Positions 22,213 through 26,533 of a DNA stretch of 64,000 bases are shown here, one piece after another. A program made the translations under genes and the position numbers. How positions within the stretch are numbered: the first letter of the stretch is position 1; each line of letters begins with the position of its first letter. The notes below the pieces were generated by a model. It did not search any database, was not told the origin of the DNA, and saw only the letters and a list, made by a program, of their open reading frames with translations. The stretch lies in NCBI GenBank assembly GCA_025057975.1, contig JANWUV010000006.1, forward strand, positions 62,001 to 126,000. Direction: 5' to 3'. The DNA comes from Chloracidobacterium sp. (GTDB lineage Bacteria > Acidobacteriota > Blastocatellia > Chloracidobacteriales > Chloracidobacteriaceae).

Positions 22213-24921
22213 ATGGCGACGCAGGATTTCGTTCACTTGCATTTGCACTCCGACTACAGCTTGCTCGACGGCGCCATCCAGCACGGCGCGCTGGCGGAAC
22301 AAGCCCAACGGATGGGCTTCAAAGCGGTAGCCGTGACCGACCACGGCAATATGTTCGGCGCAATGGGCTTCGCCAACGCCATGAACAAGGTCGGCGTCAA
22401 ACCCATCATTGGCATGGAAGCCTACGTTGCACGCGGGTCGCGCCATGACCGAGGCAAAGCCGACGCGGACGGCGAACGTGGGACGAACCACCTCATCCTG
22501 CTAGCGACGGATGAAACGGGCTACAAGAATCTCGTCCGGCTGGCGTCGCTTGGCTACACCGAGGGGTACTACTACAACCCGCGTATTGACAAGGAAGTGC
22601 TGCACGCGCACCGCGAAGGCTTGGTGGCGCTCTCGGCTTGTATGTCCGGCGTTCCGGCGTCGCTCATCTTGCGCGACAAGCAGGATCGCGCTGAATGCGA
22701 GATCGGCGAGTACAACGAAATCTTTGGGCGTGGGCGCTATTTCCTTGAACTCCAGTGGCATCGCGGCCTTGAAGACGACCAAACCAAGGTCAACCGCGCA
22801 TTGACCGAGATTGCCGCTCGCTTGGACATCCCGCTGGTTGTCACCAATGACGCACACTTTCTCACGGCGGCCGACCACGAAGCCCATCGCGTCTTGTTGT
22901 GCCTGAAAACTGGCAAATCGCTGCGCGAAGCGAGCTTTCATTACTCGCCCGACCACTATGTCAAAAGCCCACAGGAGATGTGGGCCCTGTGGGGCAATGA
23001 AAACCCAGAGGCGCTGCGCAATACGGTGCGTATCGCTGAGATGTGTACGTTTGCGTTCGGTAAAGCTCCGAACTACTTGCCGGTGTTTCCCGTCCCGGAA
23101 GGCTTTACGTTGACCAGTTACTTTGAAAGCGTGACACGGCGTGGTCTGGAAGAACGGCTGCGCCGCATCCAACCGGCCGACCCGGCGAAGTATCAGGCGC
23201 GACTGGAGTACGAAATCAGCGTCATCGAACGCATGGGCTACGAGGGCTATTTTCTCATCGTCTGGGATTTCATCCGGCACGCCCGCGAACGCGGCATTCC
23301 GGTCGGCCCTGGACGAGGCAGCGCGGCTGGGTCGCTGGTCGCCTACGCTTTGCACATTACCGATGTTGACCCCATCGCCCACGATTTGCTCTTTGAGCGC
23401 TTCCTCAACCCGGAGCGCGTCTCGCTGCCCGACATTGACGTGGATTTCTGCATGCGTGGGCGTAGCGCGGTCATTGAGTACGTCAGTCAGTTTTACGGGC
23501 GCGAAAACGTTTCGCAGATTGCGACGTTCGGCACAATGGCTTCGCGGGCGGTCATTAAGGATGTCGGGCGCGTCTTGGAAATGCCCTACCCGGAGGTCGA
23601 GAAGATCGCCAGGCTCATTCCGCCGCCGCAGCGCGGGCGCAATGTCGCCATCGCCGACGCCCTCAAGATGGTCCCGGAACTGAAGGAAGCCTATGACCGG
23701 CGGCCGGAGGTCAAGCGATTGATTGATCTGGCGCGGCGCTTGGAAGGCGGCGCACGGCACTCCTCAATTCACGCCGCCGGAGTGGTGATTTCGCCGCGTC
23801 CCGTACACGAACTCGTGCCGGTCTTCAAAACCAAGACCCGCGACCGCGAACGTGGAGAAGTCGAAGTCACGGCGACGCAGTACAACATGAACGACCTCGA
23901 AAAGGCCGGCATGCTCAAGATGGACTTCCTTGGGCTGACGGCGCTGACCATCATCGAGGACTGTCTGGCCAGCATCGAGAAGGAGACCGGCGTGCGTCCC
24001 GACCTGACGACGATTCCAACCGACGACCCAGCGGCCCTCAAAATGTTCAGCGACGGCGCGACGGACGCCGTGTTTCAGTTTGAAGGCGACGGCATCAGTG
24101 AGATCGCCCGCCGGCTCAAACCGAGCAGCTTAGACGACATCGTCGCACTCAACGCGCTGTACCGGCCCGGGCCGCTAGATTCAGGCATGGTGGACGACTA
24201 CATCGAGCGGCGACACGGACGGCGGCGTGTGACGTACGATTTCAAGGAACTGCAAGACGTTTTGGAGAGCACCTACGGCGTGCCGGTGTTCCAAGAACAG
24301 ATCATGGCGATTTTTCAGCGTCTGGCCGGCTATTCGCTTGGCGAAGCCGACCTTGTGCGCCGCGCCATGGGCAAGAAAAAGCGCGAGGAACTCGACGCCC
24401 ACAAGGCGAAGTTCATTGCCCAAGCCGTCGAGCGCGGGCATGACCGCGCCAAACTTGAAAAACTCTGGCAACAGCTTGAAGGTTTCGCCGACTACGCCTT
24501 CAACAAGTGCGTCACGGGCGACGCGACGGTACGCGACGCCCTAACGGGCGAGTTGCTGACGGTGGCGGCCTTGGCCGAGCGCGATGTGGAGCGCGTCGGT
24601 GAGCCGTTCAAGACCTACAGTTGGGACGGCCGCGCCGTGGTCGTCAACGAGTTGGTGGAGGCGTTTCCGACTGGCGAAAAGGAAGTCGTCGAAGTCGAAC
24701 TGGAGGACGGGCGGACGTTGCGCTGCACGCTTGACCACAGGTTCTATACCCGGTTGCCCGATGGGAGCGACGCCTTCGTGCCCTTGCGGGACATTCTCGA
24801 ACACGGCTTGGCGCTCTATGCCTGCGATGAACTGGCGACCGACCGGGAAGCGAGCGAGACGGCCGTCATCCATGCGGCGGAGGCTGTAGAAGCGTCGCTA
24901 GCGCCAGAAGTTCCTCGGTGA
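22213..24921 (+). CDS. dnaE: DNA polymerase III alpha subunit, N-terminal part fused to an N-intein (split dnaE)
   Basis: The 902-residue product begins with the PHP domain (HLHLHSDYSLLDGAIQ, VTDHGNMFGA) and runs through the C-family polymerase palm, with catalytic aspartates in PDIDVDFC (D407, D409) and family segments GPGRGSAAGSLVAYAL and FGTMASRAVIKDVGRV. It stops being polymerase after FADYAFNK at residue 765; bacterial alpha subunits are about 1,150 residues. From Cys766 it is an intein N-part, and then a stop. The fingers, beta-binding and tau-binding regions are absent, so a second gene elsewhere must supply the rest and join it by trans-splicing. It is the replicative polymerase of the chromosome. 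Confidence 0.93.
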   Translation: MATQDFVHLHLHSDYSLLDGAIQHGALAEQAQRMGFKAVAVTDHGNMFGAMGFANAMNKVGVKPIIGMEAYVARGSRHDRGKADADGERGTNHLILLATDETGYKNLVRLASLGYTEGYYYNPRIDKEVLHAHREGLVALSACMSGVPASLILRDKQDRAECEIGEYNEIFGRGRYFLELQWHRGLEDDQTKVNRALTEIAARLDIPLVVTNDAHFLTAADHEAHRVLLCLKTGKSLREASFHYSPDHYVKSPQEMWALWGNENPEALRNTVRIAEMCTFAFGKAPNYLPVFPVPEGFTLTSYFESVTRRGLEERLRRIQPADPAKYQARLEYEISVIERMGYEGYFLIVWDFIRHARERGIPVGPGRGSAAGSLVAYALHITDVDPIAHDLLFERFLNPERVSLPDIDVDFCMRGRSAVIEYVSQFYGRENVSQIATFGTMASRAVIKDVGRVLEMPYPEVEKIARLIPPPQRGRNVAIADALKMVPELKEAYDRRPEVKRLIDLARRLEGGARHSSIHAAGVVISPRPVHELVPVFKTKTRDRERGEVEVTATQYNMNDLEKAGMLKMDFLGLTALTIIEDCLASIEKETGVRPDLTTIPTDDPAALKMFSDGATDAVFQFEGDGISEIARRLKPSSLDDIVALNALYRPGPLDSGMVDDYIERRHGRRRVTYDFKELQDVLESTYGVPVFQEQIMAIFQRLAGYSLGEADLVRRAMGKKKREELDAHKAKFIAQAVERGHDRAKLEKLWQQLEGFADYAFNKCVTGDATVRDALTGELLTVAALAERDVERVGEPFKTYSWDGRAVVVNELVEAFPTGEKEVVEVELEDGRTLRCTLDHRFYTRLPDGSDAFVPLRDILEHGLALYACDELATDREASETAVIHAAEAVEASLAPEVPR
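24508..24918 (+). other. N-terminal split intein (Int-N) of DnaE
   Basis: Residues 766-902 of the dnaE product. Block A starts CVTGDATVRDALTGELLTV with the nucleophilic Cys1. Block B is LEDGRTLRCTLDHRFYT with the TxxH motif (TLDH), and is followed by VPLRDILEHGLALYACDE, comparable to the DEIF-type segment at the end of cyanobacterial Int-N. The last 30 residues are Glu/Asp/Ala-rich, as in Int-N tails that pair with basic Int-C. No homing endonuclease is present. The C-extein should begin with the Ser of the SHS motif. Confidence 0.9.
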
Positions 24922-25168: not shown

Positions 25169-26533
25169 ATGCCGACGAAACGCAGCATCCTCATCGTGGA
25201 CGACGAAAAAAATCAGCGCGACATCCTAGACATGATTTTGTCCGCGGAAGGCTATCGGACGGCGACCGCGCCAAGCGCCGAAGCCGCGCTGCGCATGACC
25301 AAAGTCGAACGTTTCGACTTGGTGCTCACTGACTTGAAAATGGGCGGGCAAAGCGGACTCGACCTGCTCCGCGCCCTGATGCAGGCCGATGCTTCGCAAC
25401 TGGTCATCCTCATGACGGCGCACGGCTCGATTGAATCCGTCAAACATGCGCTGCGCCTCGGAGCCGTGGACTACCTTGAAAAACCGCTTGACCGTGAACG
25501 GTTGCTGTCCGTTGTGGCGCAGGCGCTTGCCCGCCTTGATGCCCTGGACGACGCGCTGATAGGCGACAGTGAGCCGATGCAAAAGCTCAAAAAAATCATT
25601 CTCAAGGTGGCGGCTTCCGAAGAAACCGTTCTTGTGCGGGGTGAAAGCGGTACTGGAAAGGAACTTGTCGCCCGCGCCCTGCATCGGCACAGCCCACGCG
25701 CCGACGCGGTGTTTTACGTCGTCAACTGCGCAGCCATCAACGAAAACCTGCTTGAATCGGAGCTTTTCGGTCACGAAAAGGGGGCGTTTACCGGCGCCGT
25801 CGCTGAAAAGAAGGGGCTGTTTGAAGTCGCCGACCGAGGAACGCTGTTTCTGGACGAAATCGGTGAACTCAACGTCACCTTGCAAGCCAAGCTCCTGCGC
25901 GCTCTCCAAGAAGGGGAAGTACAGCGGGTTGGCTCAACCAAAGTCGTCAAGGTAGATGTCCGCGTCATCGCGGCGACGAATCGGCCGCTGGAAGACATGG
26001 TGAAGGCGAAAACCTTCCGCGAAGACCTCTACTACCGCCTCAACGTCATCCCCATTCACCTGCCGCCGCTGCGTGACCGGCGCGACGACATTCCGCTGCT
26101 GGTGGAGCGTTTTCTGGCGCGGCAGTCACGCGGCGCAATGCGCTACGCCATCACGCCTGAGGCGCTGCGTGTACTGCAAGCCTACGACTGGCCTGGCAAC
26201 GTGCGCCAACTGGAATCAGCGCTCAAGCGAGCGGCCCTCTTGTGTGAAGGTGAGACAATCGGCGTAGAAGACCTGCCGGTTGAAATCCGGCAGGCGGCCG
26301 GCCTGCCGGACGCCGCGCCGGCGCAGCCCTTCCAATTTCGGCTTCCACCCGAAGGCATCTCCTTTGAGGAAGTTGAGCGGTCGCTGATTCTGCAGGCAAT
26401 GGAAAAAACCGATTGGAACATCACCCGTGCGGCCAAACTCCTTGGGCTGACCTTCCGCACATTACAGTACCGACTGGAAAAGTTCGGCTTGCGCCGCCCA
26501 AGCGAAGCGTCGTCTTCTTCTGAGTCAGCATAG
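25169..26533 (+). CDS. NtrC-type sigma-54-dependent response regulator
   Basis: The 454-residue protein has a receiver domain with the acidic pair in LIVDDEKNQRD and phospho-acceptor Asp55 in LVLTDLKMG, an AAA+ domain with Walker A GESGTGKE and the sigma-54-contacting GAFTGA loop, Walker B TLFLDEIGEL, and a C-terminal Fis-type helix-turn-helix (NITRAAKLLGLTFRTLQYRL). It should activate RpoN-dependent promoters after phosphorylation. No histidine kinase is adjacent. The ATG at 25169 gives the usual domain start; a frame to 25112 exists. It lies 5 bases before the atpI-like gene, possibly sharing a transcript. Confidence 0.95.
   Translation: MPTKRSILIVDDEKNQRDILDMILSAEGYRTATAPSAEAALRMTKVERFDLVLTDLKMGGQSGLDLLRALMQADASQLVILMTAHGSIESVKHALRLGAVDYLEKPLDRERLLSVVAQALARLDALDDALIGDSEPMQKLKKIILKVAASEETVLVRGESGTGKELVARALHRHSPRADAVFYVVNCAAINENLLESELFGHEKGAFTGAVAEKKGLFEVADRGTLFLDEIGELNVTLQAKLLRALQEGEVQRVGSTKVVKVDVRVIAATNRPLEDMVKAKTFREDLYYRLNVIPIHLPPLRDRRDDIPLLVERFLARQSRGAMRYAITPEALRVLQAYDWPGNVRQLESALKRAALLCEGETIGVEDLPVEIRQAAGLPDAAPAQPFQFRLPPEGISFEEVERSLILQAMEKTDWNITRAAKLLGLTFRTLQYRLEKFGLRRPSEASSSSESA

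Follow-up and report, generated by a model that had tools for sequence, protein, structure and literature searches.

A split dnaE gene in Chloracidobacterium very probably yields its replicative polymerase by protein trans-splicing, at a site distinct from the cyanobacterial one

How does a bacterium obtain its replicative DNA polymerase when the gene for it stops inside an intein? This question is raised by a 64,000-nucleotide stretch of a Chloracidobacterium sp. genome (contig JANWUV010000006.1, positions 62,001 to 126,000; hereafter the window), in which a 902-amino-acid open reading frame (ORF) at 22213-24921 encodes residues 1-765 of DnaE, continues into the N-terminal part of an intein (Int-N) and then terminates. 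Our analysis located a partner gene in the same genome, a 438-amino-acid ORF (P0002; contig C1, 356980-358293) in which the C-terminal part of an intein (Int-C) lies upstream of the remaining DnaE. From these sequences, the window gene very probably supplies the N-half of a replicative DNA polymerase that can be made only by trans-splicing and that is distinct from the split polymerase of cyanobacteria. The features of the window gene and of its neighbor are as follows.

22213..24507, + strand: N-extein, DnaE residues 1-765, ending FADYAFNK (Pfam PF02811, PF07733 and PF17657; PRK05673)
23428-23448, + strand: PDIDVDF motif in the NTPase/palm region of the N-extein
23911-23937, + strand: MLKMDFLGL motif in the NTPase/palm region of the N-extein
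24508..24918, + strand: Int-N, 137 amino acids, with Cys1 encoded at 24508-24510 (TIGR01445; alignment with 10 relatives)
24727-24738, + strand: block B TxxH motif, TLDH; T and H are invariant in two alignments
24919..24921, + strand: stop codon closing the N-half gene; the contig runs on beyond it
25169..26533, + strand: NtrC-type response regulator, directly 3' of the N-half (blastp synteny)

The N-extein contains the PHP, NTPase/palm and fingers domains and covers positions 2-752 of PRK05673 (E=8e-303). Cys766 is the first residue of the intein, which matches TIGR01445 with E=6e-11 (43 bits, the cut-off being 24.5). In the alignment with the relatives, Int-N shows a conserved core up to approximately 24819, followed by a variable acidic tail; its net charge is -16, and that of the partner Int-C is +3. 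A first-pass annotation of the window had proposed a polymerase of 765 residues running to FADYAFNK and into an Int-N with Cys1, a block B TxxH and an acidic tail, and both its coordinates and its junction proved right. No match to a sigma-70-like promoter was found near the N-half gene.

The partner ORF starts with MSLRELKIVRVTPVGAAPTYNLTMRAPHHNYFVNGVLTAN, and its Int-C of 40 amino acids ends in HHNYFVNGVLTAN. After the junction LTAN/SHS (a slash marks a splice site), it reads SHSVCYG and continues through to the C-terminus of DnaE, matching PRK07373, a 449-amino-acid DnaE-C model, from its Int-C onward. The first-pass annotation had expected such a gene (Int-C, then SHSxxY and DnaE-C) outside the window, with Ser at +1 and the junction FNK/SHS. 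All of this was read in the partner gene, except that its Int-C ends in AN and not in HN. The single HHH_6 match of the genome is on contig C1 and belongs to the partner ORF, so that the DnaE C-terminus, as had been noted, is outside the window. The two halves tile the 1146 positions of PRK05673 as 2-752 and 752-1139; thus nothing of DnaE is missing, and the spliced product would have 765 + 398 = 1163 residues. Int-N with DnaE-N and Int-C with DnaE-C are on different contigs, and no endonuclease gene lies between the halves.

Could another polymerase make this pair dispensable? The genome, a 3.52-Mb draft in 86 contigs with 99.9% completeness, has one match to PF07733 (DNA_pol3_alpha), which is the N-half gene, and family searches found neither a second C-family polymerase nor a full-length dnaE in it, which bears out the earlier view that this is the only replicative polymerase. 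No further intein N-terminal region was matched in the genome beyond the N-half gene. The N-half encodes the catalytic aspartates, and the C-half encodes the HhH/OB domains and a QVSLF motif of the clamp-binding type; the functions of these motifs are presumably those of their counterparts in E. coli DnaE. Neither half could therefore stand in for the whole. The arrangement, with Int-N after DnaE-N, Int-C before DnaE-C, separate genes and no full-length dnaE found, is that of a naturally split DnaE intein.

A break in a draft assembly, a frameshift or a redundant copy could in principle mimic such a gene, and the 86 contigs of this genome give that explanation its only footing. However, the N-half gene (C6:84213-86921) is internal to a contig of 233,158 bp, away from its ends, and the same layout is found in seven genomes. 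Both halves are present in all seven Chloracidobacterium genomes, and none of the seven contains a full-length dnaE. In three of them, each assembled in two contigs, one large contig carries both halves with 0.7-1.4 Mb between them, which already refutes an artefact. Both Int-N and Int-C are under purifying selection in the genus (dN/dS approximately 0.1-0.25 in most pairs), which, together with the failure to find another polymerase, also speaks against a pseudogene. We consider this explanation to have a negligible probability. None of the three findings that the first-pass annotation had named as fatal to its own reading, namely a full-length dnaE, a missing partner and an assembly break at 24921, was made. 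In one genome of the genus (G006, locus L009), Int-N has an extra 15 residues ahead of a TYSWDG motif.

The intein has the class 1 features of a nucleophilic Cys at position 1, a block B TxxH, a C-terminal Asn and a +1 Ser. Every carrier of this intein that was read has Cys1 in the equivalent position, and this residue is invariant in the aligned carriers together with TxxH, the terminal Asn and the +1 Ser; TAN or SAN precedes SHS in all relatives. From this chemistry, we propose the following route. DnaE-N-IntN from the window gene and IntC-DnaE-C from C1 would be translated separately, and the acidic Int-N and the basic Int-C would associate into one HINT fold. Cys1 would then attack the Lys765-Cys766 bond in an N-to-S shift, the N-extein would be passed to the Ser+1 of SHS, and cyclisation of the C-terminal Asn would allow a native peptide bond to form in the conserved FNKSHS segment. 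The product would be a DnaE of 1163 amino acids with FADYAFNK-SHSVCYG restored.

Alternatively, the halves might work as a two-chain polymerase in which the intein is a docking device only. In its favor, split inteins generally associate tightly. However, none of the splicing residues varies among the aligned carriers, purifying selection acts on both intein parts, and an unspliced product would hold approximately 180 extra residues within the conserved FNKSHS segment. We regard docking without covalent splicing as very improbable.

The likeness to the cyanobacterial system raises a further question, namely whether the genes were acquired from cyanobacteria by horizontal transfer. Chloracidobacterium and cyanobacteria share hot-spring mats, among solved structures the split intein of Npu DnaE comes nearest (E=3e-14), the host gene is the same, the site is nearly so, and a penultimate His occurs in neither. 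However, the cyanobacterial junction is .../CFNK (PMC2664965), and the present site, AFNK/SHS, is four residues downstream and thus differs from the cyanobacterial allele (Y/CFNK). Identity of the intein to Npu DnaE is just ~31%, with a range of 27-35% across the group. Moreover, the DnaE exteins of the carriers group in their Blastocatellia families, and other families of the class hold intermediates in which the endonuclease gene is free-standing. A cyanobacterial origin is accordingly most unlikely. The first-pass annotation had placed the junction about four residues past the cyanobacterial site, had advised an alignment of Int-N with known DnaE inteins, and had suspected an independent splitting event or a different allele; the different site, the low identity to Npu DnaE and the intermediates within the class agree with it.

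Where, then, did the split come from? A search with an Int-N profile detected the intein in 15 of the 162 genomes of the class Blastocatellia. No comparably strong match was obtained outside the class among 396 genomes sampled across the phylum, and no relative of Int-N appeared in a scan of viral contigs. Among the matches listed in a broad scan of genome contigs, the Int-N matches were from Acidobacteriota only, although carriers outside this phylum may exist. Weak hits within the class turned out to be other inteins, located in RadA- or DnaB-like genes, and were set aside. A match in another family of the phylum (G162, locus L118) was likewise rejected; it is an intein of a DnaE2-like gene at a site equivalent to FNK/SHS, contiguous and with an endonuclease-sized insert (GFPE/C...HN/SHA).

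The carriers differ in how the halves are arranged. In five genomes (G149, G152 and G153 of family f4; G025 and G033 of family f3), three separate ORFs encode Int-N, a LAGLIDADG_3 endonuclease and Int-C, each overlapping or abutting the next, a fractured-gene arrangement that the window's own genome does not have. In these, the endonuclease is out of frame with Int-N, its ATG lying within the final Int-N codons, and the TGA of the endonuclease shares nucleotides with the Int-C ATG in G033, G025 and G149. The endonuclease has ~270 amino acids and is 26-35% identical to phage phrog_4645 proteins over most of its length. In G014, it is cut down to a 22-codon ORF, MPRTAWNKRLTPEIEERITRYL, that retains both original ends, which from its sequence is a clear fossil of endonuclease loss. 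In G007 (L065:7725-8465), an ORF for a putative nuclease of the Uma2 family replaces the LAGLIDADG ORF in the gap between Int-N and Int-C, and no homology between this gap and the endonuclease was found when tested. G009 has an in-frame contiguous mini-intein, and in the genus Chloracidobacterium no match to the endonuclease is left. A distant relative of the endonuclease, with 32% identity, is encoded in G106 (L124; G106:C65:1830-2408), a genome in which the DnaE intein was not found. Three carriers (G007, G009 and G033; L065, L066 and L067) have a second DnaE intein at G[VI]/C[TV]YQEQ, contiguous and with a LAGLIDADG domain, the region of which is shortened in G009. Two splicing events would thus be needed per polymerase in these three.

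The host genes and the inteins tell different histories. In the tree of DnaE exteins, the carriers fall in their own Blastocatellia families among non-carriers, and the grouping of G033 and the f4 carriers as a clade is rejected. The intein tree groups G033 with the f4 carriers (support 92/91), and these inteins are 73-76% identical, as against 59% for the DnaE N-exteins. This conflict suggests lateral spread of the cassette as the simplest reading. We put at about even the chances that the split intein and its overlapping free-standing endonuclease act as one mobile cassette, homing to the FNK/SHS site of dnaE; each transfer would fracture the essential polymerase gene of the recipient yet supply the trans-splicing that rescues it, and after loss of the endonuclease the halves could drift apart. 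As for the origin, our reading is that a DnaE intein at FNK/SHS would have been broken in two, with a free-standing LAGLIDADG endonuclease gene in the gap; the cassette would have moved among Blastocatellia dnaE genes, and some lineages would have lost the endonuclease. In Chloracidobacterium, the C-half would afterwards have been relocated to a distant locus, where it now adjoins pdxS. Of the two halves, it is probably this one that changed place: in f2, a sister family, an unsplit dnaE is directly followed by an NtrC-type regulator with 38-40% identity (blastp), the same kind of gene that stands 3' of the N-half, which would thus have kept the ancestral place. This synteny is suggestive only, since NtrC-type regulators form a large family.

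A less probable but possible origin, with the same function in the present day, is that the ancestral form was a contiguous mini-intein like that of G009, which was split first and was invaded later by endonuclease genes, with the overlapping-ORF form being derived. The endonuclease is of a free-standing phage-type family, and the Uma2 ORF shows that foreign ORFs do enter the gap. In G014, however, both ends of the endonuclease are kept, so that loss came after presence there, and the mutual overlaps of the ORFs fit a co-adapted cassette. The linker DNA of G009 also resembles the overlap region between Int-N and the start of the endonuclease in G014 (codon-shuffle p 0.0005). This is a weak case, as the likeness is barely seen with G025 (p 0.03) and is absent with G033 and G149; a secondary fusion is a possible source of the contiguous intein.

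Several points weigh against our reading of the system. We infer splicing itself from the conserved chemistry and from the failure to find an alternative polymerase. The AlphaFold 2 (AF2) model of the isolated Int-N has a predicted local distance difference test score (pLDDT) of 64, which is low confidence; its top Foldseek matches were to the Npu DnaE split intein, with a template modelling (TM) score of <0.5, and it gives weak support. For lateral transfer, the support in the intein tree is moderate (92/91; p-AU for monophyly of f3, 0.06), and the order of the fracture, the endonuclease loss and the G009 fusion is not uniquely fixed. Finally, the penultimate residue of the intein is Ala in all carriers, and the block G His usual in class 1 inteins is absent. 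This His is usual in the class, not universal. In cyanobacterial DnaE inteins, the penultimate residue is Ser or Ala and not His (PMC5874633), and Ala is thus not disqualifying here.

Chloracidobacterium almost certainly has a real, obligate split replicative polymerase, and its relatives record plausible steps of its origin. In the openly searchable literature, cyanobacteria are the only group for which naturally split DnaE inteins are described, and we found no paper on inteins in Blastocatellia or on split inteins in Acidobacteriota; the two that name Chloracidobacterium together with inteins deal, by title and abstract, with other matters, and an earlier mention in subscription papers is possible. 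Our study thus adds a second case, from another phylum, with another insertion site and with Ser at +1. Cyanobacterial split DnaE inteins underlie much protein-ligation technology, and a split intein is now on offer from a lineage with thermophiles. More important are the intermediate forms that survive today (a three-ORF cassette, a deletion remnant, a contiguous intein and dispersed halves), which open the origin of split inteins to direct test; the mobile-cassette scheme, if true, accounts for the way in which cells become dependent on trans-splicing.

Two known systems invite comparison. The cyanobacterial split DnaE intein (Ssp/Npu), reportedly described by Wu et al. in 1998 and Caspi et al. 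in 2003, likewise has dnaE as host and two genes, one for the N-half with Int-N and one for a short Int-C with the C-half; in both, the break is between blocks B and F, Int-N is acidic and Int-C basic, and there is no penultimate His. In contrast, the present intein is at FNK/SHS, has Ser where the cyanobacterial one has Cys at +1, is 27-35% identical to it and occurs in Acidobacteriota, and relatives of Chloracidobacterium still have the LAGLIDADG gene as a free-standing ORF, or have the halves side by side or fused. The "fractured genes" of Dassa et al. (2009) are said to consist of a split intein with adjacent halves and an endonuclease gene filling the gap, much as in these relatives. Unlike those, the relatives' endonuclease is of the LAGLIDADG_3/phrog_4645 type with ORFs that overlap both intein halves, the host is the chromosomal replicative polymerase, and the series extends to dispersed halves; unlike the free-standing phage LAGLIDADG proteins (phrog_4645), it is inside the intein gap of a bacterial dnaE. 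Judged by sequence, the split DnaE of Chloracidobacterium is the same kind of system as the cyanobacterial one, in a different allele.
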